Positions 4,590 to 35,003 of a DNA stretch of 39,950 nucleotides are shown here, one piece after another (within the stretch, counting starts at the first letter, position 1; each line of letters opens with the position of its first letter). Source of the DNA: Pseudomonadota bacterium (GTDB taxonomy: Bacteria > Pseudomonadota > Alphaproteobacteria > Puniceispirillales > UBA1172); NCBI GenBank assembly GCA_027593125.1, contig JAQCJL010000006.1, positions 1-39,950 on the forward strand, read 5' to 3'. A program made the position numbers and the translations under genes. The notes beneath the pieces were generated by a model. That model saw only the letters and a list, made by a program, of their open reading frames with translations, did no database searches and was not told the origin of the DNA.

Positions 4590-4707
4590 ATCGTCATCCT
4601 TTTGATGATCATGCTGGTGATCGAGGGCAATGGGAGAATCAAGCGATAACTCAAGCCATCACTATGGCAAAATTAACCGCCCTTCACAAGGATTGGGTAT
4701 CAATTCT

Positions 4708-9496: not shown

Positions 9497-9519
9497 CAGG
9501 CGTAATGGAGAGTATGGCT

Positions 9520-12227: not shown

Positions 12228-12256
12228 GCCCAACGATCCTGGCTTTACGCTGTTTT
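12226..12256 (+). terminator. Weak terminator-like hairpin after the carbamoylase
   Basis: AAGCC at 12226-12230 pairs with GGCTT at 12241-12245, and a run of five T starts seven bases later. It lies in the 28-base gap between the converging carbamoylase and hyuA genes. The 5-bp stem is short, so low confidence. Confidence 0.28.
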
Positions 12257-14334: not shown

Positions 14335-14349
14335 TTTCTTCTCCTCTAC

Positions 14350-16110: not shown

Positions 16111-16135
16111 GGCTTATCCTCCTCCTTGTTTTGGC

Positions 16136-17905
16136 TTAGCTCATTGATGCGCGTAGCTTCTCCGTTGCGGACTCATCAACTTGCCAACCATAGCCATCAT
16201 CGACTTCGGTCATCACGACGCCGTAATCATTACGCGCTTCATCAACGCTAATGATATCGTCGAGCACATCATCAAGCACTTTGGCTGTGTCGCGTTCAAG
16301 CGGGCTGCCAAAGCCGCCTCCTGAAGGTGAGATATAAGACACAACATCACCTTCTTCGGTTCTCAGCCCTGAAAACTTGGCATATTCCTGACGGACGTTT
16401 GACGGGTCTTTAATATTATAGATTTCCATCTTTCCGACCGCACCCGGCTTTCCACCAAAGGCGCCCCATGGGGCATCCAGATGACGATCGGATTCATGTG
16501 TCATAAATCCAGGGGTGAGATAGCGTTGTGATTTAACAACCCCTGCTCCACCACGGAATTTACCTGCTCCGGGAGGGGCATCGTCTCTGATCTCATAGCG
16601 GTCACAAATCAAGGGCAGATGCATACCAAGGTCTTCTAGCGGATTGTTTCTTGTGTTCCGCATCAATTCTTCGACGGTATCCACACCATCAGAATATGGT
16701 CTACCCCCTGTGGCGGCTTCGTTCACCTCAAGGAACACCCAATAATCACCACTTGGACGCACCCCTGAATATGCCGCAAAGGAAAGAGTTGCCGCATTTC
16801 CAGCAGTTGATTTTTCAGGGATCACTGGGCTTAGTGCCTTAATCACCAAGTCAGCCATACGCTGAATCTGACAGAAACGAGCTTCGGCGGCGGCAGGGGC
16901 AATGGGGTTAAAGATAGACCCCTTTGGCGCCGTCACCTTAATGGGGCGGAATGATCCTTCATTCTGCGGCACATATTCTTCTAATGTATACGTATCAAGC
17001 AACATCGCCCGGAAGACGAAAAATGCCGCCACCATTGTTGAACCATCATATGGGACGTTGAAAGCGGTTGGCACCTGATCTGATGAACCGGTCAGATCAA
17101 CCTCAACATCATCGCCCTTAATTCTGACACATACCTTAATTGGCAATGTTTTGTCACGGTTACGGCCGTCATCATCTAAAAAGCCTTCGGCAAAATATTC
17201 ACCATCTGGAATTTTAGCGATTTCCCGCCGCATCAACCGCTCTGTGTAATCCATTAGCTGATTACATGAAGCAATCACATCATCCTTACCATATTTTTCG
17301 AGCAATTCTTCAAAACGCCGAACCCCTAGCTCTGCTGAAGCGATCTGAGCTTCGAGGTCACCCATCACTAACCCGGGCACGCGTGTGTTATCACGAATAT
17401 ATTTCCACATGGACTCGACTCGCTTGCCGCCCTCAAAGAGTTTAACAGCATCAAGCAACATTCCTTCTGCCCACATATCCGGCACATCAATAATCAGCCC
17501 GGGTGTCGCCGCACCAATATCAACATGGTGTGCGGTATTTGCAGAAAATCCGACTAACTCACCTTTATAAAATACCGGCATAACAACCGCGATATCCGGT
17601 GAGTGCGACGCCCCTTTGTAAGGGTGGTTATGCACAACGCAATCACCCGGCGCCCATCCATCAAGAGGAATAGTTTCTGCAATCCCGCGGAGATAGCCCG
17701 GCAATGAACCAATATGCATTGGCGTGGAATCAGACTCGCAAAGCGTGTTGAAATCAACATCAAACAACCCTGCCCCTAAATCCTGACTTTCGCGAATAAT
17801 GGAAGAATAACTCATCCGGTAAAGCACGTTACCCATTTGTTCAGCGATGGAATGCAAGGCACCACCGATGACCTGTAAGGTAATTGGATCAATTTCTCTA
17901 GTCAT
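16136..17905 (-). CDS. hyuB: Hydantoinase/oxoprolinase subunit B (copy 2)
   Basis: HyuB-family subunit of 589 residues. Signatures: DPITLQVIGGALH, MSYSSIIRESQDLG, HNHPYKGASHSPDIA, TAHHVDIGAATPG, TRNNPLEDLGMHLP and SPSGGGFGSP. It shares the MSYSSIIRES and TAHH blocks with copy 1, so these two pairs are of the same subfamily while copy 3 is not. The ATG at 17905 has a GGAG box ten bases upstream. It follows its hyuA partner (copy 2) by 22 bases. Role: second subunit of an ATP-dependent cyclic amide hydrolase in the cytoplasm, fed by the ABC importer of the same operon. Confidence 0.93.
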   Translation of the reverse strand: MTREIDPITLQVIGGALHSIAEQMGNVLYRMSYSSIIRESQDLGAGLFDVDFNTLCESDSTPMHIGSLPGYLRGIAETIPLDGWAPGDCVVHNHPYKGASHSPDIAVVMPVFYKGELVGFSANTAHHVDIGAATPGLIIDVPDMWAEGMLLDAVKLFEGGKRVESMWKYIRDNTRVPGLVMGDLEAQIASAELGVRRFEELLEKYGKDDVIASCNQLMDYTERLMRREIAKIPDGEYFAEGFLDDDGRNRDKTLPIKVCVRIKGDDVEVDLTGSSDQVPTAFNVPYDGSTMVAAFFVFRAMLLDTYTLEEYVPQNEGSFRPIKVTAPKGSIFNPIAPAAAEARFCQIQRMADLVIKALSPVIPEKSTAGNAATLSFAAYSGVRPSGDYWVFLEVNEAATGGRPYSDGVDTVEELMRNTRNNPLEDLGMHLPLICDRYEIRDDAPPGAGKFRGGAGVVKSQRYLTPGFMTHESDRHLDAPWGAFGGKPGAVGKMEIYNIKDPSNVRQEYAKFSGLRTEEGDVVSYISPSGGGFGSPLERDTAKVLDDVLDDIISVDEARNDYGVVMTEVDDGYGWQVDESATEKLRASMS

Positions 17906-17927
17906 GTTTTAATCTCCATTCCCTAAA

Positions 17928-20012
17928 TCAGTTTTTTTCAATCAGAATATCGCCAACTTCTAAAATAGTGGCTGTATAATCTGGTGGAATAATGGTGGTT
18001 GAGTTGTGCTGTGTCACAATGGCAGGGCCACTAATCGTATCCCCTGATTTCAGCTTGCCCCGATCATAACGTGGGGTAGAAACCGCTTTATTATCGTCAA
18101 ATACGGTATCTCTGTTATAGAGATGCGCATATTCCGGATTCTTGCTGCCACCTTTTTCCAGTTTATTAAGCTGTAATTTCTCAACATCAGCAGATGCAAC
18201 TACACGGACGGTAATTGCCTCCGTAATCTGGTCTTTAAAGGCGTGACCATATTGCTGTTTATGGACATCATAGAAATTATCAATAACAACTTGGACATTC
18301 TTTGTTGTTAATGGCTCATTTGGCATTTTTGCCCTTAGCTCAAACCCCTGACCCAGATAACGGCATTCCATAATATATTCGTACTGGCGTTTATCTTTGG
18401 GCACATTATCCTGATCAAGCTGTTGATCTGCCTCTGCTTTCAGGTCTTCAACAATCTGGTTAATTTGTGCCAGATCATTATCAGATGCCTGATTAAGAGG
18501 GATAAGAACAGACCGCGTATATTCATATTTAAGATCAGAAACCAGCAATCCTAATGCGGCGGTAATACCCGGCTGTGATGGGGATATGATATTCTTTGCT
18601 GAAATCATTTCGGCGAGTGCAACCGCATGCAATGGACCGGCACCTCCAAATCCCATCAATGTAAACCCTCTTGGGTCAATCCCTTTGGCAACAGAGTTAG
18701 AATTAATAGCAAGCGCCATATTATTATTGATAATTTTCAGAATCCCTAGGGCAGCTTCTGTTACGGACATGCCCAAGGCATCAGCAATATGTGTCTTGAT
18801 GGCTTTTTCGGCCAGCTCTGGCTTAATGACAATATCACCACCAAGGAACTGTTCCTGATCCAGTCGGCCCAGAACAACCTGCGCGTCAGTAACTGTTGGA
18901 TGCTCACCGCCATTGCCGTAACATGCTGGCCCCGGAACAGCGCCTGCTGATTTTGGCCCAACGCGGAAGGCACCACCGTCATCAATATAAGCGATAGAAC
19001 CCCCACCTGCACCAATTGCATCAATATCAAGCATTGGAACCAACACTGGCAGACTTGCAACTTCGGTATCGCGAGGATTTTTAATACGAAGGTTACCATC
19101 TTGTATCACGGAAATATCAGCGGATGTTCCGCCAATATCAATGGTAATGATATTGGAAATATTGTTGTATTCACCTGTCGAACGCGCACCGATAACACCA
19201 CCAGCAGGGCCTGATAACAACAATCCAATTGGCCTGTCAGATGAATTTTCAATGGTAGAAATACCACCATTAGACTGCATAATTCTTACCTGACTGTTGA
19301 TACCTTCTTTTTTCAGCCGGTTTTCCAGATTAGAAAGATACCGTGCTGTTTTAGGGCCAATATAGGCGTTCATTGCGGTTGAGCTGAAACGTTCATATTC
19401 ACGGATCACGTTAACCACTTCTGATGATGTATAAATATAAGCATCTGGATGAATAGAGGATACGATTTCCTTCGCCCGCATTTCATGGTCATTATTCAGA
19501 AATGAGAACAGAAAAGCGACAACAATAGAATTAATCCCGCGCTTTTTGAGCAATTCTGCGGCCGCCCTAACTTCATCTTCGTTCAATGGAGTTTCAACTT
19601 CGCCTGTTGGGGGCATAAGCCGCTCTGTAATTGGAATACGATTGCGCCGCTTGACTAGAGGCTTTGACTGCCATGGCACTTCATATTGAAGGCTAAAGTT
19701 ATGAGGACGCTTGTGGCGAGCCATATGAAGAATATCCCGGAACCCACGAGTGGTCAGCATCCCAACCTCAGCGCCATCACGTTCAATCACCATGTTGGTT
19801 GCTACGGTTGTACCATGATAAAGCATATCAATATCAGATGGGCTAACCCCAGCCAGTTGGCATACCTGCAACACACCCTTAACCACGCCTTCAGATTGAT
19901 CATGCGGCGTACTAGATACTTTAGTTACGGTAACCTCATTCTTATTTGCATCATGGTTTTCCAAAATAATATCGGTGAATGTTCCACCAACGTCTACGCC
20001 TACTCTTATCAT
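17928..20012 (-). CDS. hyuA: Hydantoinase/oxoprolinase subunit A (copy 2)
   Basis: HyuA-family subunit, 694 residues, with GVDVGGTFTDI at residues 4-14, YHGTTVATNMVIERDGAEVG at about 65-84, IDIGGTSADIS near 290, GPACYGNGGEHPTVTDA near 363 and GFGGAGPLHAVALAE near 458. It is the partner of hyuB copy 2, directly downstream. The start ATG at 20012 is only three bases after the amidase stop and its perfect AAGGAGGT box lies inside the end of the amidase gene, so the two are coupled. Codon use looks slightly more AT-rich than in hyuA copy 1, by eye. Likely substrate is a hydantoin-like or lactam ring taken up by the transporter encoded upstream; this is inferred from context only. Confidence 0.93.
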   Translation of the reverse strand: MIRVGVDVGGTFTDIILENHDANKNEVTVTKVSSTPHDQSEGVVKGVLQVCQLAGVSPSDIDMLYHGTTVATNMVIERDGAEVGMLTTRGFRDILHMARHKRPHNFSLQYEVPWQSKPLVKRRNRIPITERLMPPTGEVETPLNEDEVRAAAELLKKRGINSIVVAFLFSFLNNDHEMRAKEIVSSIHPDAYIYTSSEVVNVIREYERFSSTAMNAYIGPKTARYLSNLENRLKKEGINSQVRIMQSNGGISTIENSSDRPIGLLLSGPAGGVIGARSTGEYNNISNIITIDIGGTSADISVIQDGNLRIKNPRDTEVASLPVLVPMLDIDAIGAGGGSIAYIDDGGAFRVGPKSAGAVPGPACYGNGGEHPTVTDAQVVLGRLDQEQFLGGDIVIKPELAEKAIKTHIADALGMSVTEAALGILKIINNNMALAINSNSVAKGIDPRGFTLMGFGGAGPLHAVALAEMISAKNIISPSQPGITAALGLLVSDLKYEYTRSVLIPLNQASDNDLAQINQIVEDLKAEADQQLDQDNVPKDKRQYEYIMECRYLGQGFELRAKMPNEPLTTKNVQVVIDNFYDVHKQQYGHAFKDQITEAITVRVVASADVEKLQLNKLEKGGSKNPEYAHLYNRDTVFDDNKAVSTPRYDRGKLKSGDTISGPAIVTQHNSTTIIPPDYTATILEVGDILIEKN

Positions 20013-20015
20013 TGG

Positions 20016-21419
20016 CTACCTCCTTATAGTAATGATGTTCTCCAGCATACTTGCCACAGCCAGCAGATCGTCATCACGACCTCCATGTGTTGTGACCAGA
20101 AGACTGGTTGGTCTTTTGTTAATGTTACCTAGTGGGGTCATTGGCATGGCCACACCCGGCAAGTTGAAAATATTGCCTAGCGTTGTGTTACGCAGGGATT
20201 TCAAATTGAACTTATGAAACACACTCTTATCAGCCACGAGAGGGGCTAATTCTGGGGCAACAATTGGTACGGTAGGCATCAGCATGAAACCTGATCCCGT
20301 TTTCTGAATAATTTCAGAAACCCCATCAACCCTTAACCAATGAAGCCGAACAACATCAGACATAGTCATGGTTGACCCACGCATAATGCGGTCTAACACA
20401 CGCTCATCTATACGCGCCCTAACCTCATCCGTGAGCCGATCCCCATATTCATTCCACGCATCAAGGGCCACGATGGTTCCACATTCTTGCATCAGCTCAA
20501 AGCTCTTGGAAAAACAATCCAAATCAATAGGAGTGATGGCATAACCAGCATCCTCAATCATACTGAGAGCGTTTTGATAATCCTCAGCCACTTCAGGGTC
20601 TAAATCATCTAGAACAATCGTCTGCGGCGTGTAAAATTGCGGTTTTTCGGTTCTTGGCGGTGCCTGAACATGATGTTCAGACCGAAAGATCTTATCAATT
20701 GCGGCACAGTCAGCAACCGTCTTTGCCAGAGGCCCAACGGTATCAAATGTACGAGATAAGGGAATAACGCCGCGCTTATCATAGCGCCCCTCTGAGGTTT
20801 TAAGCCCTGTCACACCGTTGTAAGCGGCAGGAACACGAACGGAACCGCCTGTGTCAGATCCAATAGCGATAGGCGCCATATCACGGCCAACCGCCGCCCC
20901 ACTTCCTGATGATGAACCGCCAGGCGAATAAGCCACAGTGTCCGAACATGCATTCATAGGTGTGCCATAATGAGGATTATAGCCAATACCGGAAAAAGCC
21001 AATTCTGTCATATTGAGTTTCCCCAAACTGACCATGCCAGCGGCTTTTGCCTTGGCAACAACAGGGGCATCACTGATGGCAGGTTTAGCCTTTTCAAAAA
21101 CAATGGACGCCGCGGTGGTAACCTCGCCTTCCATATCGTAAAGATCTTTCCACGCTATAGGAACACCATCAAGCGGCGACAATGGCGCTTTGGCATCTAA
21201 CCTTTTATCTGCGGCCTTAGCTTCGGCCATCGCACGACTTTCGGTAATCTGAAGATAAACCGGACTTGATTGTTTCTTGGCGCGATCAACGAAAACCTGA
21301 GCAACATCCACGGCTTTGACTTCGCGGTTATGCAAAGCCTTGCCCAGATTACAGGCAGTCATGGATGCAATATCATCAGGTCTCATAATATTATGCACCA
21401 CCGCTATTGTTGGTTTCAT
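20016..21419 (-). CDS. Amidase-signature family hydrolase
   Basis: Cytoplasmic amidase of the GatA/amidase-signature family, which cleaves primary or N-substituted amides with a Ser-cisSer-Lys triad. All three are visible (numbered from the 21419 start): Lys91 in PIAWKDLYD, cis-Ser170 in SPGGSSSGSGAAV and nucleophile Ser193 in GSDTGGSVRVP. The 467-residue length is normal. The first ATG at 21419 overlaps the upstream ATPase gene by 29 bases; an ATG at 21386, giving MRPDDIASM, sits just past that stop and is an equally good or better start. It may finish ring-opened amides or ureides made by the HyuAB enzymes encoded next. GatA itself is unlikely because no gatB or gatC is nearby and the context is catabolic. 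Confidence 0.88.
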   Translation of the reverse strand: MKPTIAVVHNIMRPDDIASMTACNLGKALHNREVKAVDVAQVFVDRAKKQSSPVYLQITESRAMAEAKAADKRLDAKAPLSPLDGVPIAWKDLYDMEGEVTTAASIVFEKAKPAISDAPVVAKAKAAGMVSLGKLNMTELAFSGIGYNPHYGTPMNACSDTVAYSPGGSSSGSGAAVGRDMAPIAIGSDTGGSVRVPAAYNGVTGLKTSEGRYDKRGVIPLSRTFDTVGPLAKTVADCAAIDKIFRSEHHVQAPPRTEKPQFYTPQTIVLDDLDPEVAEDYQNALSMIEDAGYAITPIDLDCFSKSFELMQECGTIVALDAWNEYGDRLTDEVRARIDERVLDRIMRGSTMTMSDVVRLHWLRVDGVSEIIQKTGSGFMLMPTVPIVAPELAPLVADKSVFHKFNLKSLRNTTLGNIFNLPGVAMPMTPLGNINKRPTSLLVTTHGGRDDDLLAVASMLENIITIRR

Positions 21420-22503
21420 TTAACATGATGCGGCCTTGTTTATCGGACCAGTAGCAGTTGAGAACAGTGCCAGGATTCAAATCTTGACCTTTGACTTTAT
21501 CAACATGTGTATCAATTTTAACAACATCACCATTGGCTAAGGTCATATAGATAATTACGGTATTGAGAACAAAGTTTGCCTGCTTCACATGGCCTGTGAT
21601 GGCGTTAACGCCGCTCGCTTTGCTCTTGCCAAATTGGATATATTCAGAAGGCACCGACAACAATCCTTGCTGGCCTTTTGATATCTTGCCTGCGCCTGCC
21701 ATCCCGGCCTTCAGCACCCCATGTGGGGTTTCAATAGACGCGATACCCCCATTAGCCCCTGAAATCTTGCCTTCAAAAAGGAGGTTCTTTCCAATAAAGC
21801 GCGAAACGAAAGGGGTTTGTGGGTTGAAATAAATATCTTCGGACTTGCCGATTTGTTCCACCCGACCTGCGTTCATCACAACGATACGGTCACCCATACC
21901 TAGGGCTTCGGATTGCGCATGGGTAACAAAAACAAAGGTGATGTTTAATTGCCGCTGAAGAAGTTTCAATTCATCCTGAATGGCGCGGCGCAGATTAGCA
22001 TCAAGCGCGCCTAACGGCTCATCAAGCAAAAGAATTTCAGGCTCGGTAATCAGTCCTCGTGCTAGGGCAACACGCTGTTTCTGTCCACCTGATAGCGAAT
22101 GTTCTCTGGCATCAGCAACACTGCCTAAATCCAACAGATCAATCATATTTCCTGTTTTTTGTCTGATCTCAGAGGCAGAAAGATTTCTAATTTTAAGGCC
22201 AAACTCAATATTCTGACGCACCGTCATGTGCGGATAAATGGCATAATTTTGAAAGATGGTAGCGGTAGGACGCTTCTCAGCCTTGATATGCGTATTATTA
22301 ACGCCGCGAATGTAAAGCTCACCCGATGTGATATCCTCTAACCCTGCGATCATTCTCAAGGTCGTGGTCTTGCCACAGCCTGAAGGCCCGACAAAGGATA
22401 GGAATTCTCCTTTTTCCACCTGAAGGTCAAAGGCCTCAACAGCCAGAGTCCCACCAGGATAAATTTTTGTTATTTGTTTTAGCTCAAGATCAAATTGGGT
22501 CAT
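21391..22503 (-). CDS. ABC transporter ATPase, polyamine/sugar type (complete motifs)
   Basis: ATP-binding subunit of a PotA/MalK-like importer, 370 residues. All catalytic motifs are present: Walker A GPSGCGKT (39-46), Q-loop IFQNY (83-87), signature LSGGQ (137-141), Walker B ILLLDE (157-162) and the H-loop His195 in FVTHAQSEA. After about residue 240 comes a regulatory TOBE-type domain. It lies between the binding protein and the amidase, apart from the two permeases. A second, different ATPase heads the operon at 28145 and lacks the H-loop histidine, so this subunit probably supplies the catalytically complete half of a mixed dimer. Confidence 0.92.
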   Translation of the reverse strand: MTQFDLELKQITKIYPGGTLAVEAFDLQVEKGEFLSFVGPSGCGKTTTLRMIAGLEDITSGELYIRGVNNTHIKAEKRPTATIFQNYAIYPHMTVRQNIEFGLKIRNLSASEIRQKTGNMIDLLDLGSVADAREHSLSGGQKQRVALARGLITEPEILLLDEPLGALDANLRRAIQDELKLLQRQLNITFVFVTHAQSEALGMGDRIVVMNAGRVEQIGKSEDIYFNPQTPFVSRFIGKNLLFEGKISGANGGIASIETPHGVLKAGMAGAGKISKGQQGLLSVPSEYIQFGKSKASGVNAITGHVKQANFVLNTVIIYMTLANGDVVKIDTHVDKVKGQDLNPGTVLNCYWSDKQGRIMLNETNNSGGA

Positions 22504-22576: not shown

Positions 22577-23788
22577 TTAAGCGCTTAGGAATTCATCCCA
22601 CTTCATCATCAGATGATCATACTCATCTGGCCACTGGTGCCAGTAAGTTACCTTTGAGGCACGGTTTGCAAGTGATCCACCATCACGGAGGTCGCCTTCT
22701 TGAATCCCGCGATCAGGGGCACCAACCCAAGGCTTGCCTTCATACCAGAAGTCATACTTTTCTTTTGGCATAGCGTCCTTAATGGTTGTGGTTGGTGAGT
22801 AGTAACCCTGCTCAGATACGGCGATAGCTGGTGGGCCAGACAGCCAGTAATCAGCATAGGCCATAACAGCATCTTCGTTTGGCGTACCATTGATCATGGA
22901 AATACCAATTGACCAACCGCGATAACCTTCTTTTGGTTCCGCGTATGAACATGGAATGCCCTGTGCCTTAACAGCCATAACCGCCGGCTGCCATGCATCA
23001 GCAAGAACCATCTCACCAGAAGCCATCAGGTTAACCAGTTCACCGAAATCACCCCAAAGGGCACGGAACTGACCTTCTTTCTTTTTGGAAACCAGGAACT
23101 TAGAAGCTTCATCAATCTCACTCTTATTTGGGTTACCTGGGTTTGGCACATCCAACATACCAAGTGAGTTCATAGCCAAGATAGCCTGTCCGAATGCGAT
23201 CAATGGATCAACGTTCAGGCCAGTCTTGCCCTTAAACTTCTTGTCGAAAAGTGAAGTCCATGTGTTGGCTTCTTCTGCATCCACAAGGTCAGGACGATAG
23301 CCAATGGAGTCAAAGTTATAAACGGTCGGAACCATCCAAAGTGATGACTGTCCAGCATCTGCCCAAATCTGGCCAGAAATCTGTGCACGCGCTTCCATCC
23401 GTGGGTCAGTCTTTGTGAATGTATCACGAATACTGTTCCAGTTAGATAGCTTAGCTGTTGGAATTGGCTTAATGGTGTTTGTCATTGTCATTGCTGGCAG
23501 ACGCTCACCAATTGTTTCCCAACAATCATAGGCTTTTGAACCTGAAAGCAGTTCTGTCTGGGTGTTCGGGAAAATGTCCCCTTTACCGTTAACAGATCCT
23601 ACCCCTGATTTCTCTTTGAAATCATTCAGGATACGTTCTTGAACCGTCACGGAAAGACCGACTGTTCTTAATTGCTGTTCAGCCAGATGGCCGCCAGCGA
23701 ACAGCTGAGATGGTGTTGAGAGCATAGTGCCCCCAATCGCCATCCCTGTCCCTGCCAGAAACTTACGACGATTTGTATGTATGGTCAT
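22577..23788 (-). CDS. ABC transporter substrate-binding protein, Tat-type signal
   Basis: Periplasmic binding protein of the PotD/family-1 extracellular solute-binding type, about 403 residues. The N-terminus has a twin-arginine signal, NRRKFLAGTGMAIGG, followed by a hydrophobic stretch and a likely cleavage near FAGGH, so it may be exported folded by Tat. The start at 23788 is set by a perfect AGGAGGA box; the longer frame to 23842 would run into the dehydrogenase gene upstream. It captures the substrate for the permease pair encoded upstream. The C-terminal half is clearly homologous to the signal-less protein at 30634-29441 (shared EGKP, GGS and W-D motifs), which suggests related ligands. 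Nature of the ligand is unknown; polyamine-like or cyclic ureide are options. Confidence 0.9.
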   Translation of the reverse strand: MTIHTNRRKFLAGTGMAIGGTMLSTPSQLFAGGHLAEQQLRTVGLSVTVQERILNDFKEKSGVGSVNGKGDIFPNTQTELLSGSKAYDCWETIGERLPAMTMTNTIKPIPTAKLSNWNSIRDTFTKTDPRMEARAQISGQIWADAGQSSLWMVPTVYNFDSIGYRPDLVDAEEANTWTSLFDKKFKGKTGLNVDPLIAFGQAILAMNSLGMLDVPNPGNPNKSEIDEASKFLVSKKKEGQFRALWGDFGELVNLMASGEMVLADAWQPAVMAVKAQGIPCSYAEPKEGYRGWSIGISMINGTPNEDAVMAYADYWLSGPPAIAVSEQGYYSPTTTIKDAMPKEKYDFWYEGKPWVGAPDRGIQEGDLRDGGSLANRASKVTYWHQWPDEYDHLMMKWDEFLSA

Positions 23789-23816
23789 AATATTCCTCCT
23801 TCTAGAAGATTGGTTG

Positions 23817-24569
23817 TTAGTAACGGCCGACCGCAAGCCCACCGTCCACGCTTATCACTTGCCCTGTCAAATATCTGGCTTGTTCTGATGCTAAAAACAC
23901 AATTACATCAGCGATATCATCTGGTTCCCCGATACGACCCATCGGGATGAAAGACCCTGCTTTATCTGCACCTTCTTTCCCAAGTGAATGCTCCTCCGAC
24001 AAAAGCTGGGCAGTACGGATATAGCCCGGGGCTACTCCGTTAACCTTAATCCCGTGTCGTGCCAGTTCCGAGGCTAATCCCCGGACCAAGCCAACAACAC
24101 CTGCTTTTGCCGATGAATAATGTACATGCTCATCCCATCCATACATGACACCCATGCAGGATGAGAGGCAGATAATTGATCCAGCCTTTGCCGCCTTCAT
24201 TGCGGTTAACGCCGGACGAATAACCCGGAACATCCCCTTAAGATCAACATCAAAGGTGAAGTCCCATTTCTCGTCAGTCATCTGATCTAGCGGCACCTTA
24301 TGGGCAATGCCAGCATTACATACAATAGTATCAATAGCGCCATGCGCCTTTTCAACCGCTGCCACCACCTGATTGGCATTTTCGGTTGAAGTCACATCCA
24401 GATGATGAAACTCTGCTGTGCCGCCGGTTGAGGTAATGGCATCAACCACGGCATTCCCTTCGTCTTTGAGAATATCAGTAACAATGACACGATAACCAGC
24501 TTTACCGAAGGCCAATGCCGCCGCCTTACCGATACCAATTCCTGCCCCTGTTATTATTGCCGTTTTCAT
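23817..24569 (-). CDS. SDR-family oxidoreductase (1)
   Basis: NAD(P)-dependent short-chain dehydrogenase/reductase, 250 residues. The dinucleotide loop TGAGIGIG (7-14), the CNAG motif (84-87), catalytic Ser137, and Tyr151-Ser-Ser-Ala-Lys155 are all present; the C-terminal GGLAVGRY is typical of classical SDRs. TDILKD after the second strand, with an acidic residue at the end of beta-2, suggests NAD(H) preference. It follows the second SDR by ten bases in the transporter/hydantoinase operon. It could oxidise a hydroxylated ring or side chain before or after ring opening; the substrate is not deducible. Confidence 0.9.
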   Translation of the reverse strand: MKTAIITGAGIGIGKAAALAFGKAGYRVIVTDILKDEGNAVVDAITSTGGTAEFHHLDVTSTENANQVVAAVEKAHGAIDTIVCNAGIAHKVPLDQMTDEKWDFTFDVDLKGMFRVIRPALTAMKAAKAGSIICLSSCMGVMYGWDEHVHYSSAKAGVVGLVRGLASELARHGIKVNGVAPGYIRTAQLLSEEHSLGKEGADKAGSFIPMGRIGEPDDIADVIVFLASEQARYLTGQVISVDGGLAVGRY

Positions 24570-24579
24570 ACTATCCTCC

Positions 24580-25335
24580 CTACAACATCACATCGCCAGA
24601 ATTAGGCCCAAGCGTTTGCCCAACATATATTCGGGCATCATCTGACGCCAAAAAAGCCACTGTGGCAGCCACATCTGAAGGCTCACCAAACGCACCAAGT
24701 GGCAACTGTGCCGCCTTTGCATCACGCCATTCTTTAGATAATCCCAGAACCAATTCAGTATTGATAGGCCCCGGGGCAACTGCATTAACCCTGATACCCG
24801 ACTGGCCAACTTCACGCGCTAAGGATTTGGTTAGGCCAATAATCGCGGCCTTGGCAGACGCGTAATGCACCAAATCTGCTGCCCCAATCTGACCTAATTG
24901 TGAGGCGGTATTAATGATCACGCCGCGGCCACGTTTCTGCATAATTGGAAGTGCAAAATGACAACCAAGGAAACATCCACGCAAATGCACAGCGATCATC
25001 CGATCCCAATCATCACAAGTCAGATCAACAAATGCTTTTTGTTGCAAAATACCTGCGTTATTGACCACTAGAGACAGATCACCAAAAGTGGCCAATGCCG
25101 CATCAAAAAGCGATTTCATATCAGCCTCTGACGACACATCGCCAGCCATTGTAGCCAGATCCCCTGCGTCAATTCCGCTATTCACCAGGCGAGCTTTCAC
25201 CGCCTCCAACCGATCCGCATCAATATCATTCATCATCACTTTTGCGCCATCATGTGCCAGCCGTTCGGCAATAGCCGCGCCAATGCCTGCGCCGGCCCCT
25301 GTCACGATAGCGATGTGATGAGCAAGATTGGTCAT
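24580..25335 (-). CDS. SDR-family oxidoreductase (2)
   Basis: Second classical short-chain dehydrogenase, 251 residues, with TGAGAGIG (12-19), NNAG (92-95), Ser145, and Tyr158-x3-Lys162. NDIDADR after beta-2 carries an acidic residue and suggests NAD(H). The start overlaps the permease stop by four bases (ATGA). The family's usual C-terminal DGG motif is replaced by PNSGD. With SDR 1 it forms a tandem pair that is clearly different in sequence, so not a recent duplication; the two may act on successive oxidation steps or on two stereoisomers. Confidence 0.9.
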   Translation of the reverse strand: MTNLAHHIAIVTGAGAGIGAAIAERLAHDGAKVMMNDIDADRLEAVKARLVNSGIDAGDLATMAGDVSSEADMKSLFDAALATFGDLSLVVNNAGILQQKAFVDLTCDDWDRMIAVHLRGCFLGCHFALPIMQKRGRGVIINTASQLGQIGAADLVHYASAKAAIIGLTKSLAREVGQSGIRVNAVAPGPINTELVLGLSKEWRDAKAAQLPLGAFGEPSDVAATVAFLASDDARIYVGQTLGPNSGDVML

Positions 25336-27077: not shown

Positions 27078-28145
27078 TCAGCTAATCAGCTGTTTGTTCT
27101 CATCGTATAAAAGCATATCCGCCGCATCCCAGCTTAGCAGGTAGGCGTTATTTGGATTAAGATGCTTGGGTTCGCTCAGACTCATATGATCTTCGACTTC
27201 GCAAATGCGGTCATCATTAGTCTTAAAGAAATAAATCACTTTATTGCCAAGAAACTCACTGGTTAGAAATGTAGCCTCTAAGCCACTGGCCTTTGCTGTT
27301 GGTTTAGCAATGTCGATCTTATCCATACGCACCGCACAATGGCTGGCACGGCTAATTTTGGCACTTGGCGCCTTACCTTTAAGGCCAGATTTGAGGTGAT
27401 CCGCCATCATGTCACCAGAGAAAATATTAAAGCTGTGCATACTCTTAGCTGTGGTGAGGTCTTGCGGCATGGTGTAAAGGGTTTGCGGTTCGCCCTGTTG
27501 AACGATATGCCCTTCGGACATCACGAGCATTTTCTGCCCCATGGCCAAGGCCTCAAACTCATTTCCCGTCACATGGATAAAGGAAATACCAAGTTCTTTA
27601 CGAATATTTTGAAGCTCAATGGTCATCCGTTCACGAAGATTGGCATCAAGCGCACCAAGAGGTTCATCTAGCAAACAAATTTCTGGGCTAGTAACAAGGG
27701 TCCGCGCCAATGATACACGCTGTTTCTGACCACCAGAAATCTGACCTGTCATTTTTTGTTCTTGCCCAACTAGCCCGACCAATTCAATCATCTCAGACAC
27801 TTTACGTGTGATTAGACTTTCATCCGTTATGCGGTCATTGTTGCGATGCCGTAAGCCAAAGGCGATATTGTCAAACACATTGAGATGAGGAAATAACGCG
27901 TATTTTTGTTGCACAAACCCTATCCGGCGTTCATGACAAGCGCGTTTTGAGATATCTTCACCGCGAAGAATAATTTCACCTGCGTCAGGTTCAAGCAGGC
28001 CAGCAATTATTCGCAGAAGTACCGATTTGCCGCTTCCTGACGATCCAAGAAGAGTAATATACTCATTTTCACTTACCTCAAAAGAGATATCGTTTACCGC
28101 TGGTACGCCAGCAAAACCCTTGGATATCGACCTTACTTCTAGCAC
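27078..28145 (-). CDS. ABC transporter ATPase lacking the H-loop histidine
   Basis: First gene of the 16-kb operon: a PotA-like ATP-binding subunit of 355 residues starting at a GTG. Walker A GSSGSGKS (34-41), Q-loop VQQKY (78-82) and Walker B ICLLDE (156-161) are intact. The signature reads ISGGQ instead of LSGGQ. The H-loop, normally VTHD, reads HVTGNEFEA: codon 194 is GGA (glycine) at 27566-27564, confirmed in the DNA. The H-loop His is needed for efficient ATP hydrolysis in this family, so this subunit is probably a weak or structural partner to the complete ATPase at 22503-21391. A C-terminal regulatory domain of about 120 residues follows. Confidence 0.9.
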   Translation of the reverse strand: MLEVRSISKGFAGVPAVNDISFEVSENEYITLLGSSGSGKSVLLRIIAGLLEPDAGEIILRGEDISKRACHERRIGFVQQKYALFPHLNVFDNIAFGLRHRNNDRITDESLITRKVSEMIELVGLVGQEQKMTGQISGGQKQRVSLARTLVTSPEICLLDEPLGALDANLRERMTIELQNIRKELGISFIHVTGNEFEALAMGQKMLVMSEGHIVQQGEPQTLYTMPQDLTTAKSMHSFNIFSGDMMADHLKSGLKGKAPSAKISRASHCAVRMDKIDIAKPTAKASGLEATFLTSEFLGNKVIYFFKTNDDRICEVEDHMSLSEPKHLNPNNAYLLSWDAADMLLYDENKQLIS

Positions 28146-28407: not shown

Positions 28408-29421
28408 ATGAATTTTGTACACAAAAATACATTGCCACAACCACGATACCGGCAGATCTATGAAGAAATCGCCACAACACTTGAGGCGAATCGCCCCCTT
28501 GATGGGGCACTAGTGAACCTAGGCACGCTTGCCAAAATTTTCAAAACCAGCCGAACCCCCGTCTATCAGGCCTTACAAATGCTGGAAGCAGATAAACGCG
28601 TCAGCCGGGTTGGCCGTAAAGCAGAGTTCATCTTTCATCGCCAAAGTGGGCGCAAGATCCAAACGCCGACAATACCAGTTCGCTATACAGAGACTGATCT
28701 TCGCTCCTTTTTCAAAAATGTTCTGGATACGGAAAAACAGCGTTCTGTTGATTTGCATGAGGACATAGAACAACAAATCGCTAATCTTTTGCCTTTTGGT
28801 GAGTTTTGGGTAAATGAACAAAAAGCAGCTGATCATTATCATGTTAGCCGCACCATTATCCGTCAGGCTTTGTCTAAATTTGCTGAACGCGGTTTGATCG
28901 GAAAAGATTATCGCTCCCACTGGACGGTCGGGCCTTTGACCTCAAAAATGTTGAATGATTTGTTTATCATTCGCTCTAAACTTGAACCCTTAGCACTGAT
29001 AAAAGCGGCTAACCATCTGAACAGCAAGGTCATCCATCAATGGCTAGAGAGATGCCACAACGCCAGAGATAACGCCAAAGACCTTGACCAAGAAACCATC
29101 AAACAGCTTGAAGATGATCTTCATGTGCATCTTTTGGAATATTCTAACAACACCCCCTTATTGCGATTTATCCACCAGTCGCAACTGGCGCTTGTGGTCA
29201 ATGATGTGTTTGCAAAACCGCGCAACACCCGACCGTTTTCAGCTGCGATGACGGAACATATTATGATTTACGAATATCTTTTGCGCGGCGCCATCGAACC
29301 AGCGGCCTTAGCTCTTGAAACACATATTCAGCTATCAGCCAAACGCACGACCCAGCGGCTTAAAGCTTTGTCGATTTTCCCCATGCCGCCCTTACCATCT
29401 TGGTTAACGCGGCACGCCTAA
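28408..29421 (+). CDS. GntR-family regulator with two winged-helix domains and FCD domain
   Basis: DNA-binding regulator, 337 residues, longer than the usual 220-250 of FadR/FCD proteins. Two GntR-like winged helices can be read: residues 12-78, with LAKIFKTSRTPVYQALQML, and residues 115-175, with AADHYHVSRTIIRQALSKF. The C-terminal all-helical FCD ligand domain (about 180-330) has the metal-type residues Asp237, His241, His284 and His306. The ligand could be a small carboxylate or amino acid. It is transcribed divergently from the 16-kb operon and convergently with the PxpABC operon, so it is the obvious candidate regulator for one or both. The tandem head could bridge two operators or bind a longer site. 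Confidence 0.87.
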   Translation: MNFVHKNTLPQPRYRQIYEEIATTLEANRPLDGALVNLGTLAKIFKTSRTPVYQALQMLEADKRVSRVGRKAEFIFHRQSGRKIQTPTIPVRYTETDLRSFFKNVLDTEKQRSVDLHEDIEQQIANLLPFGEFWVNEQKAADHYHVSRTIIRQALSKFAERGLIGKDYRSHWTVGPLTSKMLNDLFIIRSKLEPLALIKAANHLNSKVIHQWLERCHNARDNAKDLDQETIKQLEDDLHVHLLEYSNNTPLLRFIHQSQLALVVNDVFAKPRNTRPFSAAMTEHIMIYEYLLRGAIEPAALALETHIQLSAKRTTQRLKALSIFPMPPLPSWLTRHA

Positions 29422-29440: not shown

Positions 29441-30634
29441 TTATAAAATCCATGGCAGATTTTGCCATTTTCTGACCAGATAATTATGTTCAGGCATGAT
29501 GGTGTTCCAGACACAGGTTTTAGCCATACGGCTTTCTTGGCTTCCACCCGCCCGAACGCTGCCCCGGGGGTAAAGCAAATTGCCGTCATTATCAAAAATA
29601 TCGAACCGCGCCGGTTTGCCTTCAATCCAGTATTCATATTCATGTTGCTGAAGATAATTTTTGACGGCGAAAAGATTGGTAAAATACCCGCCTTGCCGGC
29701 ACAGATACGCCCCTGCCGGGCCCGTCAGCCACCAATTCAGATAATCATAAGCCGCATCAAGTGACCAATCAGGAATAGCCTGAGATAGGGCAAGCCCACC
29801 AAACCACCCCCGATAGCCATTTTGCGGCGCAATCATTTCTACGTCATGCCCTTCGGCGCGAAGACGCATGGCACCTGACCACCAAAGAGAACATAACAAA
29901 GGTTGATCGGGTTTAACCAGATTTGCCAAGTCTTCTTCAACTTCCCAAATCCCCTTGAACTGACCCTGTTTGAGATAGCGATAAATATGCTGAATAAAAA
30001 GATCAATTTCCTCAATGCTGAGGTCTGAGATATCGGAAACCTCTAAATCTCCATTTCCGGTTAACGCCAACAGCATTTCTACCGCACAAATCGCAGAATC
30101 CTTTTGGACAACCACAGCACCTCGCCAAGCCTCACTCACCAAATCTGACCAATCATTGACTTGATCTCGGCTATCTTTACCCCCGTTAATCAGAGCAATG
30201 GTATCAGCATTAAATATCGTCGGCATCATGCTGATTTCGTCCGAGGGCTGGCTCGATAACGACATATCAGGGCCAACATATAGCCGTTCAACCGGAGCAG
30301 ATGATTTCCATTTTTTGTCCTTGATCGGACTATAGGCATTGAGAGCGGAAATGCTGATCTGGTCAAAAGCTTCGATACGATTGATATCAATTGGCATCAA
30401 TGACCCTGTTGGCCAGCTCAAATCGATATCATGAAACCATTGATCATAAACATCGAAACTCTCCGGGGATAGGGCCGCCTGTTGTTGAGCCGTTTCCCCA
30501 TCACGGGTTACCAGATCAAGAGCTATGCCTAAATCTTTTTCTGCATAGCCCTTGAGCACTGGATTTTGGGTCACAGAAGTGCCTAACACCGCAAGCCGGC
30601 GTGTGGAATCCTTGACCAGAGGGGCGCCTAGCAT
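29441..30634 (-). CDS. Solute-binding-protein homologue without signal peptide
   Basis: A PotD-type (family 1) binding-protein homologue of 397 residues, last gene of the PxpABC operon, starting eight bases after pxpC. The N-terminus MLGAPLVKDSTRRLAVLG shows no Sec, Tat or lipoprotein signal, and similarity to the neighbouring binding protein (22577-23788) begins within the first 20 residues at LGTSVT, so only the mature domain is present. The upstream frame has no start codon that would add a signal. The C-terminal part keeps the shared EGKP, GGS and MxxWxx patterns. It is probably cytoplasmic: a ligand sensor, a chaperone for the ring substrate, or a non-transport leftover. Export by an unrecognised route cannot be excluded. 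Confidence 0.82.
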   Translation of the reverse strand: MLGAPLVKDSTRRLAVLGTSVTQNPVLKGYAEKDLGIALDLVTRDGETAQQQAALSPESFDVYDQWFHDIDLSWPTGSLMPIDINRIEAFDQISISALNAYSPIKDKKWKSSAPVERLYVGPDMSLSSQPSDEISMMPTIFNADTIALINGGKDSRDQVNDWSDLVSEAWRGAVVVQKDSAICAVEMLLALTGNGDLEVSDISDLSIEEIDLFIQHIYRYLKQGQFKGIWEVEEDLANLVKPDQPLLCSLWWSGAMRLRAEGHDVEMIAPQNGYRGWFGGLALSQAIPDWSLDAAYDYLNWWLTGPAGAYLCRQGGYFTNLFAVKNYLQQHEYEYWIEGKPARFDIFDNDGNLLYPRGSVRAGGSQESRMAKTCVWNTIMPEHNYLVRKWQNLPWIL

Positions 30635-30642
30635 CCTATGAT

Positions 30643-31614
30643 CTAGGCCAGCGAGCCGCGGATCTGATCCAATAACTGGTGCCGTTCCTTACGAGCGGCT
30701 AGCGCGTCTTCCATGCTTACCGCTTTAAACTTAACCGGTGTATGCGGCTGCAATTGGCCGATATAATCCATATCCGCCGAAATAATCGCCCCAAGGGTAA
30801 AATAGCCACCACCAGAGACCGCATCTCGATGAAGAACAATCGGTTCAGTTCCACCCGGCACCTGAATAGACCCATAAGAATAACAGCCATCAACAATATT
30901 CGATGGATCCGAACCTGCCCCAAAAGGCTGTTCACGATCTACAAACTCCAGCGGCTTACCCCCACGGAACCGATATCCCATGCGGTCTGCCTCTGGGGCA
31001 ACTTTCCATTCATCATTTAGGAATTGTTCCCCTGAAGCATCTGTCAACCGATGCCAATATAATCCCTTAACCATGCGCAAAACCGCAGGGTTTCCAGGCA
31101 TACGGCGATGCGCAGGTGCCACGGTAGCGCCTGTCTTACCTGGGCCTGATTTTCCCAATGGCAGAACATCACCAGCCGCTACATTTCGGCCTTCAACACC
31201 GCCAAGAGCCCCAATCGGATACGTAGACCGACTGCCCAACGCCTCGGGGGTATCAATACCGCCACTAACCGCAATATAAATCCGGGCCCCTGATTGCAGA
31301 AACCCAAAGCTAAGGGTTTGGCCTTTTTTAACAGCGATAGCCGTCCATGTGTTTTGCTCAACCCCATCCAGCATTACTGGCAATTCCGCACCCGTGATGG
31401 CAATCAGGGTATCTTCAGTAAAGGTGATTTCGGGGCCCATAAATACGGCTTCGAGTCCGGCCGCATCCTCGGCATTGCCCACGAGCATGTTCGCCACGCG
31501 CATGGCAAAACGATCCATTGCCCCACCAATAGGAATGCCCAAGTGGAAATATCCCGGGCGACCAAGATCCTGAATTGAGGTCGATAGACCAGGATTAAGA
31601 ATATTAAGCGCCAT
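30643..31614 (-). CDS. pxpC: PxpC / biotin-dependent carboxyltransferase-type subunit
   Basis: 323-residue protein of the PxpC (YbgK, KipA, allophanate hydrolase subunit 2-like) family. Signatures: STSIQDLGRPGYFHLGIPIGGAMD at the start, GPEITF, GSRSTYPIGALGG near 130 and EPIVLHRDAVSGGGY near 258. With PxpA and PxpB it forms the bacterial 5-oxoprolinase; the same fold forms the carboxyltransferase domain of urea carboxylase together with the PxpB-type domain. Its start lies 11 bases inside pxpB, so the two are coupled. The adjacent biotin carboxylase and carrier suggest that here it works in a carboxylation step. Confidence 0.92.
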   Translation of the reverse strand: MALNILNPGLSTSIQDLGRPGYFHLGIPIGGAMDRFAMRVANMLVGNAEDAAGLEAVFMGPEITFTEDTLIAITGAELPVMLDGVEQNTWTAIAVKKGQTLSFGFLQSGARIYIAVSGGIDTPEALGSRSTYPIGALGGVEGRNVAAGDVLPLGKSGPGKTGATVAPAHRRMPGNPAVLRMVKGLYWHRLTDASGEQFLNDEWKVAPEADRMGYRFRGGKPLEFVDREQPFGAGSDPSNIVDGCYSYGSIQVPGGTEPIVLHRDAVSGGGYFTLGAIISADMDYIGQLQPHTPVKFKAVSMEDALAARKERHQLLDQIRGSLA

Positions 31615-32479
31615 TGAGAGCCTCCATCAAACGGGCATTTGTTCCCGTCATATCCTTGTTGAACGCATCCAGATCAAACTCAACTTCAGCCATTTTCGGC
31701 ATAAAGGTGCCGTCTTCAACTTGTTGGCAAATCGCATCATATTCGGCCCGATCGATCGGGCGCCATTTGACGATATCACCGGGACGGAACAAAACCATGA
31801 AATCCTTAAGATAGGTGACTTCTTGTTCAGGGTCATAGATTGGCATAGGAGTGATACCAAACATTTGATATCCGCCTGCCCCACGCACTGAATAGATGCA
31901 GGAAAAACACCCGCCATACCCAACTGTCAGTTTTGGCGTATCTGTCCGAGGCCGCAGATATTTGGGGACTTCGAGCTGTTTTTCTCTTTCGACCAACTGA
32001 TAAAGAAATGGCAAGCCTGCAACAAACCCCACCATCGAAACAAACCATGGTTGCGAATGGTGCGCGGTAATAAAATCTTCAACACTGTCAAAACCGTTGA
32101 TACGCGCAGCATATTCTAGATCCGTTCCGCTTGGGTCTTGGTGCCGCTCCCTAAACCGCATTAAGGTTTCATGGGTCCAAGGGTCCTGATAATAAACGGG
32201 TATCTCAATGATACGCGTATTCATCCGCTTTTCAGCTTTCTCCGCGACAGCCTCTAGCGCTTTTACCTGTTCCAGCAAATCGTCAGGATGAACAACATCA
32301 GGATTAAACTTAACCTGAAAAGAGGCATTCGCAGGACATATTTCTGTCACGCCATCAATTTTTGCCTCTCTGACCGCGTTACTCATGGATAGGCTTTTAA
32401 AGAACGCATCAAGGGACATTTCCTCGTCCATCTCGATGTAAATATGTTCATCACCGCCAAATGTGTATCGTGTTTTCAA
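31604..32479 (-). CDS. pxpB: PxpB / allophanate hydrolase subunit 1-like protein
   Basis: 291-residue member of the PxpB (YbgJ, KipI) family, with the typical IEIPVYYQDPW, FVAGLPFLYQL, PRTDTPKLTVGYG and ITPMPIYDP blocks. It is longer than E. coli PxpB (218 residues): an extra C-terminal segment after residue 240 is rich in Asp/Glu and probably helical. It forms the PxpBC half of the 5-oxoprolinase or a urea carboxylase-type carboxyltransferase. Located 30 bases downstream of the biotin carboxylase gene, with a good ribosome binding site (AAAGGAG). Confidence 0.9.
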   Translation of the reverse strand: MKTRYTFGGDEHIYIEMDEEMSLDAFFKSLSMSNAVREAKIDGVTEICPANASFQVKFNPDVVHPDDLLEQVKALEAVAEKAEKRMNTRIIEIPVYYQDPWTHETLMRFRERHQDPSGTDLEYAARINGFDSVEDFITAHHSQPWFVSMVGFVAGLPFLYQLVEREKQLEVPKYLRPRTDTPKLTVGYGGCFSCIYSVRGAGGYQMFGITPMPIYDPEQEVTYLKDFMVLFRPGDIVKWRPIDRAEYDAICQQVEDGTFMPKMAEVEFDLDAFNKDMTGTNARLMEALNGA

Positions 32480-32509
32480 CTTTATGCTCCTTTGGCTATC
32501 GTCATATTT

Positions 32510-33877
32510 TTAGGGCTTAATCTTTTCAATATTATGTTCCAGCCAGTGTTCTAACCAACCGGTATGCACCTGACCTTCCTTAACCTCATTATCTTTGGCA
32601 AGGGCAATGAGCAGGGGTATTGTTGTTTCAATCCCAGAAATCGTGGTGTTTTCTAAAGCATGATGCATGGCTGCAATTGCCTCATCCCTATTATTCCCAT
32701 GAACAATTAGTTTGCCCAAAAGGGAATCATAGAAAGGGGGGATTGTGTAACCTTCATAGAGGAAATGATCAAACCGCACCTCTGGTGCATGCGCACAGGT
32801 AAGGGTTGTGATCACACCCGGTGATGGCAAAAAATGCATCAGTGGGTTTTCGGCATTGATCCGAACCTCAATGCTATGTCCATTAATCTTGATATCATCT
32901 TGCGAGACGGATAAAGGCGCGCCACCTGCAATACGTATCATTTCTGCCACCAGATCATACCCTGTGATGGCTTCAGTAACAGGATGTTCCACCTGAATTC
33001 GGGTATTCATCTCAATAAAAAAGAACCGTCCAGTTGATTCTTCATAAAGATATTCCACCGTGCCAGCGCCAACATAACCAATATCCCGCGTAAGCTTTAC
33101 CGCCGATTGGCAAAGCTCTTGACGGGTGGCTTCATCTAGGGTTGCTGAAGGGGCTTCTTCCCATATTTTCTGGCGGCGACGCTGAAGCGAACATTCTCTC
33201 TCAAAGAAATGTACCGCCGACTTTCCATCACCCATGACCTGAACTTCGATATGCCGGGCATTAACAACAACATATTCAAGATAGTAACTGCCATCCCCAA
33301 ATGCTGAAACGGCCTCTGCCTGAGCTTGCGGCGCAAGCCGGCGCAAGCTGGCTTCGTCATCAGCAATGCGAATACCCCTTCCCCCGCCACCTGCGGCAGC
33401 CTTAATCATCACAGGATAACCAATCTCATTCGCTACCCGAACCGCCTCATCCAGATCAGAAATGGCCCCATCAGAACCCGGCACCACCGCCACACCTGCT
33501 TTCATAGCAGTTTGGCGCGCGGCAATTTTATTACCCATTTTTTCAATCAAGTCTGCGTCAGGGCCAACAAAAATAAGCCCTGCATTGGCAACCGCACGAA
33601 CAAAATTGGCATTCTCAGAGAGAAATCCATATCCCGGATGGATGGCATCTGCGCCAGCATCTTTAGCGGCAGAAATAATAGCATCATGTTTTAGATACGA
33701 TTGCGCCGCCGACGCCGGACCAATGCAAATGGCTTGGTCTGCCAGCTTTACGGCCAGCATATTTTCATCTGCTTCAGAATAAACCTGAACCGTTTTGATA
33801 CCAAGACTCTTTGCGGCTCTGATAATACGAACCGCTATCTCACCTCGGTTTGCAATAAGTAATGTTTTGATTACCAT
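32510..33877 (-). CDS. Biotin carboxylase (AccC-like)
   Basis: 455-residue ATP-grasp enzyme that carboxylates biotin on a carrier protein using ATP and bicarbonate. Present: NRGEIAVRIIRA (N-terminal domain), GYGFLSEN, the glycine-rich KAAAGGGGRGIR loop near 160-171, EMNTRIQVEHPVTE (catalytic Glu/Arg block) and RINAENP. It lies between the small carrier gene and pxpB rather than next to accB/fabH-type genes, so it probably serves the PxpBC subunits and not fatty-acid synthesis. A general acetyl-CoA carboxylase subunit role is possible but no carboxyltransferase AccA/AccD is here. Confidence 0.92.
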   Translation of the reverse strand: MVIKTLLIANRGEIAVRIIRAAKSLGIKTVQVYSEADENMLAVKLADQAICIGPASAAQSYLKHDAIISAAKDAGADAIHPGYGFLSENANFVRAVANAGLIFVGPDADLIEKMGNKIAARQTAMKAGVAVVPGSDGAISDLDEAVRVANEIGYPVMIKAAAGGGGRGIRIADDEASLRRLAPQAQAEAVSAFGDGSYYLEYVVVNARHIEVQVMGDGKSAVHFFERECSLQRRRQKIWEEAPSATLDEATRQELCQSAVKLTRDIGYVGAGTVEYLYEESTGRFFFIEMNTRIQVEHPVTEAITGYDLVAEMIRIAGGAPLSVSQDDIKINGHSIEVRINAENPLMHFLPSPGVITTLTCAHAPEVRFDHFLYEGYTIPPFYDSLLGKLIVHGNNRDEAIAAMHHALENTTISGIETTIPLLIALAKDNEVKEGQVHTGWLEHWLEHNIEKIKP

Positions 33878-33882
33878 GATTT

Positions 33883-34116
33883 TTATGAAAGCTTTGCTAT
33901 CACCTGTCCTGCCTGAACAGGCTGTTCGTTTTCGACAACATAGCTATCGAATGTTCCCGCATCTGTGGCTTTGACTTCGATGAAGGTTTTCATCACTTCG
34001 ATGAGACCAATGACATCACCCTCGCTAACGGTATCCCCTTTGCTTTTGTAAGCAGGTTCACCCGGAGATGGGGTAAGGTAAAATGTACCTGGAAGAGGAG
34101 ATTGAATATCTGTCAT
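33883..34116 (-). CDS. Biotin carboxyl carrier protein, domain-only (AccB-like)
   Basis: 77-residue biotinyl domain without the N-terminal region and Pro/Ala linker of normal AccB (about 150 residues). The biotin-accepting lysine is Lys43 in EVMKTF; acetyl-CoA carboxylase carriers have EAMKM, so Ala and the last Met are changed. Met-Lys is kept, which supports biotinylation. PSPG near residue 16 and VENEQPVQAGQVIAKL at the end are typical. It starts 45 bases after pxpA and ends five bases before the biotin carboxylase gene. It would shuttle carboxybiotin to the PxpBC subunits. Confidence 0.9.
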   Translation of the reverse strand: MTDIQSPLPGTFYLTPSPGEPAYKSKGDTVSEGDVIGLIEVMKTFIEVKATDAGTFDSYVVENEQPVQAGQVIAKLS

Positions 34117-34161
34117 AACATACCTTTCTTAAATGTTTAGTGCAGGCCCTTTTATGTGTGA

Positions 34162-34935
34162 TCATGCCGTGGTTGGGATAGGGGCGGCAATCGTAATCCC
34201 GTTAGCCTTTAGCGCATCATGAATAGCTTGGCCCATGGCTAGCGCACCCGGCGAGTCTGAATGAAAACAAATCGATTCAAAAGCGATATCAATATCATTG
34301 CCATCCACGGTTTTCACCTTGCCTTCCGTACAGGCACGAACACATTTTTCAGCAACAGCTTTGGGGTCAAGTTGGCCCACTTTGCGGGCAAAAACGATAG
34401 AACCGCTATCATCATAATCACGGTCAGCATAAAACTCACGTGCGCTGGGGTAACCTTTTTCCAAAGCAATCTTTCTAGTCAGAGAAATGCCCATACAAAA
34501 GATCATCTGATCAGGACAGGTTTTCATCAAAGTGTCTATCAACATTGTTGAAAGCTCTTCGTTCCGAGCGGCTTCCATATAAAGCATGCCATGCGGTTTA
34601 ACATGCTGAAGTTCAATATCATGGCGGCGCCCAAATTCACGCAGCGCCCCGACCTGATAGATAATATCATTAATCAACTCATCTGAAGGAGTTTGAATAA
34701 ACCGGCGACCAAAACCGCGCAAATCCTGATAGCCAGGATGGGCACCAAGCCCCACACCATAATCTTTTGCTAATTTTACCACCCTATCCATAGAGTTGGG
34801 ATCACCTGCATGAAAGCCAGTGGCCACATTGGCGGAACTAAGAATTTTCATCAATTCTTCATCAGGGGCATCACCAAGCACCCAATGGCCGAAGCCTTCA
34901 CCCATATCACAATTCAGATCAACACTGGATTTCAT
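34162..34935 (-). CDS. pxpA: PxpA / LamB-YcsF family hydrolase subunit
   Basis: Subunit A of the bacterial 5-oxoprolinase, about 257 residues. The family opening [14 protein letters not shown], then [36 protein letters not shown] and FHSDSPGA are all intact, with several His and Asp residues suited to hydrolysis of an activated ring. The frame extends to an ATG at 34989, but GAGGAA directly before ATGs at 34938 and 34935 fixes the start there and removes an 18-residue leader that overlaps a palindrome. It heads the six-gene set pxpA, carrier, carboxylase, pxpB, pxpC, binding-protein homologue. Confidence 0.92.
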
Positions 34936-34986
34936 CATTTCCTCAATGGTTGTTTGTAAGCCATATTCATGCAGAAAATGGCATCT

Positions 34987-35003
34987 CATTAACGTTATTA
35001 ATG
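34987..35003. promoter_or_regulatory. Palindromic operator candidate before pxpA
   Basis: CATTAACGTTATTAATG: 6-base arms CATTAA/TTAATG around 5 bases, about 52 bases upstream of the pxpA start in the 147-base gap after the cupin gene. The flanks are AT-rich and promoter-like on the minus strand. Regulator unknown; the GntR-type protein is a candidate. Confidence 0.45.

Follow-up and report, generated by a model that had tools for sequence, protein, structure and literature searches.

The closest described systems to the transporter reported here are the PotABCD spermidine importer and MalK (type I; PDB 8y5f and 3puv), with which it shares the ATPase fold, a TOBE-type C-terminus in one of its ATPases (hereafter A1), PotB/PotC-like permeases and a PotD-like binding protein. 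PotA and MalK are homodimers with a histidine in the H-loop of both sites, whereas here two different ATPases, A1 and A2, are encoded, one of them with a glycine at this position. In ABC dimers each ATP site is formed by the Walker A/B motifs, the Q-loop and the H-loop of one subunit and by the signature of its partner (PMC7756269). ATPase activity of H-loop mutants was below 2% in HisP (H211D/R/Y) and MalK (H192R), and below 0.1% in HlyB (H662A) (PMC6222333).

The first-pass annotation of this DNA had considered the absence of the histidine from one of two ATPases as known in exporters but less so in binding-protein-dependent importers. This view has to be qualified, since LivF/UrtE (Gln), GlpS (Thr) and the C-terminal half of CUT2 ATPases (Ser) lack the residue (PMC11466899). 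LivFG and UrtDE are also binding-protein-dependent importers with two ATPases, one without the H-loop histidine, but LivF and UrtE belong to another ATPase family and their glutamine keeps hydrogen-bonding ability, whereas glycine has no side chain; in ABCC1 NBS2, Gln and Asn substitutes retained transport (PMC7756269). In the genome that holds the window, whose ABC ATPases were read by regions (at least 42 domains caught by a motif script), a LivG/UrtD-type IEHD adjoins a LivF/UrtE-type VEQN, with Gln at the H position, at L173:379-1937 and L169:409-1858. Plasmid pRL9 of R. johnstonii 3841 (L154:15753-17909) encodes glycerol-transporter ATPases, which we take to be GlpS and GlpT, with complementary defects that all fall in one composite ATP site. 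This Rhizobium glycerol importer is likewise of MalK type with two ATPases, and GlpS has Thr at the H position; nevertheless, several of its motifs are degenerate (an altered Walker A in GlpS and an altered signature, LTADQ, in GlpT), whereas the A1/A2 site loses the histidine only. A search of openly licensed full texts returned no paper on these glycerol ATPases. CUT2 sugar importers (RbsA, NupO) are binding-protein-dependent and one of their ATP sites is degenerate (PMC11466899); the CUT2 ATPase found in L154 carries Ser at its second H position. In CUT2 importers, however, the ATPase halves are fused and Walker A and signature are changed. The exporters TAP1/2, TM287/288 and ABCC1 share the logic proposed below, in which one ATP site holds and the other hydrolyses (PMC7756269), but they have the exporter fold and their degeneracy typically includes the Walker B Glu and the signature, changes absent in A1 and A2. 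Importers with one His-less ATPase are already known and the principle is not new.

The window, that is, the whole stretch of 39,950 nucleotides analysed, contains an importer gene set of a marine alphaproteobacterium that is also present in soil rhizobia and other marine bacteria (Table 1). The PxpABC/biotin carboxylase cluster is found upstream of A1 on rhizobial plasmids and in relatives as well. Several genes for HyuA/HyuB-like hydantoinase/oxoprolinase subunits flank the operon (7424-11286 on the plus strand and 12256-20012 on the minus strand). Judging from the PxpABC, biotin carboxylase, HyuAB and amidase neighbours only, the importer probably takes up a small compound of the amide, lactam or hydantoin type. 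In the divergent regulator Pfam gave one GntR match above cut-off and a second, weak one before the FCD domain, and its Shinella orthologue (L015:8430-9440, minus strand) also has two winged-helix-like stretches.

Table 1. Features of the A1/A2 operon and its surroundings, in positions of the window
Feature	Position	Strand	Basis or remark
A1, PotA/MalK-type ABC ATPase, 355 aa, TOBE_2	27078..28145	-	Pfam PF00005 and PF08402, AF2 model
A1 codon 194, GGA (Gly), H-loop His position	27564..27566	-	Alignment with PotA and relatives
A1 H-switch HVTGNE, residues 191-196	27558..27575	-	H191, G194 and E196 invariant across the A1 alignment
PotB-like permease P0005	26202..27050	-	70-97% identity in orthologous operons
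PotC-like permease P0006	25332..26189	-	Conserved gene order
SDR oxidoreductase 1	24580..25335	-	Conserved operon member
SDR oxidoreductase 2	23817..24569	-	Conserved operon member
SBP-b, PotD-like substrate-binding protein, twin-arginine-type signal	22577..23842	-	
A2, PotA-type ABC ATPase, His195, intact motifs	21391..22503	-	
A2 H-switch FVTHAQ, residues 192-197	21913..21930	-	Ala after His in 45/45 orthologues read
SBP-a, PotD-like, without recognisable export signal	29441..30634	-	
GntR/FCD regulator, divergent	28408..29421	+	Apparently two tandem winged-helix regions
Amidase, downstream of A2	20016..21419	-	
PxpC, PxpB, biotin carboxylase, 77-aa carrier-like protein (33883-34116), PxpA	30643..34989	-	Linked 5-oxoprolinase/carboxylase-like genes

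The plus strand reads TCC at the codon 194 position, so that the minus-strand codon is GGA and the glycine first noticed at the A1 H-loop position is indeed encoded. All other motifs of A1 are intact, namely Walker A (GSSGSGKS, 34-41), Q-loop (FVQQK, 77-81), signature (ISGGQ, 136-140), Walker B (CLLDEP, 157-162) and D-loop (GALDA, 164-168). The ISGGQ, which had been taken for a deviation and an additional weakness, is not one, since many His-bearing ATPases have it, including one in the same genome (L003). The full set of motifs reported for the second ATPase was found as described: besides His195, A2 has LSGGQ and GPSGCGKT. The H-loop histidine of PotA/MalK-type ATPases is, in short, absent from A1 and present in A2, and the H-loop deviation is confined to one subunit. 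Of the other motifs that would share this site, neither Walker B of A1 (DEP) nor the signature of A2 (LSGGQ) is altered. The two proteins are only 34% identical. Both contain the ABC ATPase domain PF00005; A1 also matches TOBE_2 (25.3 bits, cut-off 21), and the C-terminus of A2 has no Pfam match. The AF2 model of A1 resembles the PotA/MalK fold (Foldseek, TM about 0.8), and its best profile scores are with PhnT2/PotA-type models, LivF/UrtE being absent from the best matches and the H-position residue being Gly. Neither protein reaches the cut-off of 482 bits of the PotA equivalog NF006987, with 248.5 bits for A1 and 325.7 bits for A2.

We examined the conservation of the glycine in orthologues, where a return to histidine would have spoken against a functional asymmetry: H-V-T-G was found in all 47 A1 loci read (17 from a first census and 30 from the Rhizobiaceae group defined below, with possible repeats of the same species), and His was restored in none. 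In the genus of the window, A1 orthologues of five other genomes (71-91% identity) all have Gly; orthologues with 43-47% identity are located on plasmids of Rhizobium, Shinella, Agrobacterium, Ensifer and Pararhizobium, as well as in genomes of Sulfitobacter, Celeribacter, Mesorhizobium and Rhizobium. R. johnstonii 3841 has the operon on pRL12. The 161 MalK-type ATPases of the fetched loci in the first census, whose motif excludes LivF/UrtE-type ATPases, comprised 143 with His, 17 with Gly, all of them A1, and one with Thr (GlpS). In 385 alphaproteobacterial genomes the pattern HVTGxExEA had five matches, three of them outside ABC ATPases; the remaining two came from the window genome and from G196, the single genome of its order, and G196 has the same operon. 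Since three base changes separate GGA from a His codon and Gly is fixed in the orthologues, Gly194 is neither a chance event nor a sequencing slip. The dN/dS of A1, about 0.05-0.10, points to strong purifying selection and, together with the glycine in 47/47 orthologues, rules out a sequencing error or a pseudogene. The change to Gly in A1 is old and maintained. The sole match outside Alphaproteobacteria, L016 (NZ_CP084754.1), bears the name Roseateles, yet in the A1 and the A2 clade alike it falls with Shinella HZN7; its record carries the flag UNVERIFIED_ORG and the label is probably wrong.

Gene order is A1-permease-permease-SDR-SDR-SBP-b-A2, with one permease pair, in all loci of sufficient length. 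In the Rhizobiaceae group (the family holding G758, so labelled because its A1 genes match named Rhizobiaceae; 297 genomes), A1 is present in 32 genomes and A2 in 33, and in all 32 of the former A2 is on the same contig, 4573-5016 bp apart. The sole genome with A2 only is an assembly of 1070 contigs. Its A2 gene begins at base 4661 of the contig concerned, and from the A1-A2 spacing A1 would be expected almost wholly off that contig. Within the window genus, a single-contig genome lacks both genes, and one fragmented genome has A1 without A2 because the contig ends before A2. The histidine was present in all A2 sequences read (45/45), always within T-H-A-Q where relatives have mostly T-H-D-Q. 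A1 and A2 each form one clade with congruent branching, and the nearest relatives of A2 (L108, L142) are His-bearing ATPases from single-ATPase operons. We also considered the possibility that the ATPases serve two complete, separate transporters, which had been named as an outcome that would overturn the idea of a mixed dimer; no second permease pair linked to A2 was found at any of the syntenic loci examined. On this comparative evidence A1 and A2 are apparently an obligate pair, which is what one would expect of a mixed dimer with one weak site; against this, vertical co-inheritance of the operon would likewise yield congruent trees and co-occurrence.

In addition, the operon was at first believed to have one binding protein, but two PotD-like homologues, SBP-a and SBP-b, are encoded. 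SBP-b has a twin-arginine-type signal in 10/10 loci; its listed start is GTG, and the true start may be a downstream ATG. In contrast, SBP-a has no signal-peptide-like segment in any of 12 loci by a simple hydrophobicity scan, in place of a trained signal-peptide predictor. SBP-a is predicted to adopt the PotD fold, its gene in the window genus begins immediately behind PxpC, and it is conserved in every lineage sampled (for example, orthologues at L015:19289-20521 and L021:7589-8737). The hydrophobicity scan suggests that SBP-a is a binding-protein paralogue retained in the cytoplasm beside its importer.

Taking these observations together, we consider it likely that A1 and A2 form a mixed dimer on one permease pair with one hydrolysis-impaired site, although the dimer, its stoichiometry and its asymmetry are all read from the genes. 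In this PotABCD-like (type I) importer the two ATPase positions would be filled by A1 and A2, presumably one copy of each, on a single PotB/PotC-like permease pair. The A1-side site, formed by the A1 Walker motifs, Gly194 and the LSGGQ of A2, would probably bind ATP and close, but would hydrolyse poorly because no histidine would contact the gamma-phosphate. The A2-side site, formed by the A2 Walker motifs, His195 and the ISGGQ of A1, would be complete and would perform most of the hydrolysis that resets the cycle. The pump would probably work with a single ATP site of full strength where two are usual. Precedents from mutated importers diverge: according to PMC6222333, which cites Nikaido and Ames (1999), the histidine permease needs one intact subunit only, whereas by the same source's account of Davidson and Sharma (1997) a single H-loop-mutated MalK subunit severely impairs maltose transport. 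Because of this latter result, as cited there, it cannot be taken for granted that an importer with one site would function. A further point against a weak A1-side site is that neither the Walker B Glu nor either of the signatures is altered, in contrast to strongly degenerate sites. We also consider, with considerable doubt, a one-stroke type I importer in which the H-switches (HVTG/THAQ) would be jointly remodelled, one ATP would act as a standing clamp, only one would be split per substrate, and the cytoplasmic PotD-like paralogue would sense or accept the imported ligand.

The alternative that best survives, unlikely in our view, keeps the mixed A1/A2 dimer but has both sites hydrolysing, with the HVTGxE H-switch using E196, H191 or the trans D-loop in place of the histidine. 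H191 and E196 are in fact invariant in A1, H191 being seen only with Gly194, A1 retains its Walker B Glu and Q-loop and faces an unaltered partner signature, and Pdr5 H1608A retains ATPase activity (PMC6222333). Nevertheless, the H-loop mutants of HisP, MalK and HlyB are almost inactive (PMC6222333), and the position of H191, three residues before the H position, is occupied by a hydrophobic residue in His-bearing relatives and belongs, in the AF2 model, to the strand that precedes the loop, so that H191 is not expected to reach the gamma-phosphate. Both features argue against compensation by H191, but E196 might still compensate.

Two further alternatives dispense with the mixed dimer. MalK-type ATPases are commonly homodimeric and shared ATPases are known, so A1 and A2 homodimers could take turns on the single permease pair, perhaps as conditions change, and the single-ATPase operons of the closest A2 relatives fit such a scheme. 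An A1 homodimer, however, would have two His-less sites, A2 occurs without A1 only in the one fragmented assembly, and both genes belong to the same gene run, which makes this arrangement very improbable. That A1 is a regulatory or decaying paralogue beside a transporter driven by A2 homodimers would agree with its missing histidine and its low identity to A2, but is hardly credible for a protein that retains all other motifs, the MalK/PotA fold and a low dN/dS, and whose gene in every case immediately precedes those of the permeases.

The mixed A1/A2 dimer with one impaired site differs from the described asymmetric importers in a combination of features that, as far as the sequences compared here indicate, is distinct: the residue is Gly, the ATPase is of PotA/MalK type, the substitution is the sole change at an otherwise intact site, and the H-switch of the partner is derived. 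A search of openly licensed full texts returned no description of the A1/A2 variant or of the transporter of this operon, and the paired His/Gly ATPase variant is real, conserved and apparently undescribed. Whether binding-protein-dependent importers hydrolyse one or two ATP per substrate is still argued. The A1/A2 family seems to be a naturally occurring importer of PotA/MalK type that has kept one impaired site across distant alphaproteobacteria, with the impairment due to a single substitution and no wholesale degeneration, and it is present in strains of Rhizobium, Shinella and Agrobacterium that can be cultured. It would allow the contribution of the H-loop to be tested in isolation and would constitute a natural test of one-site import.
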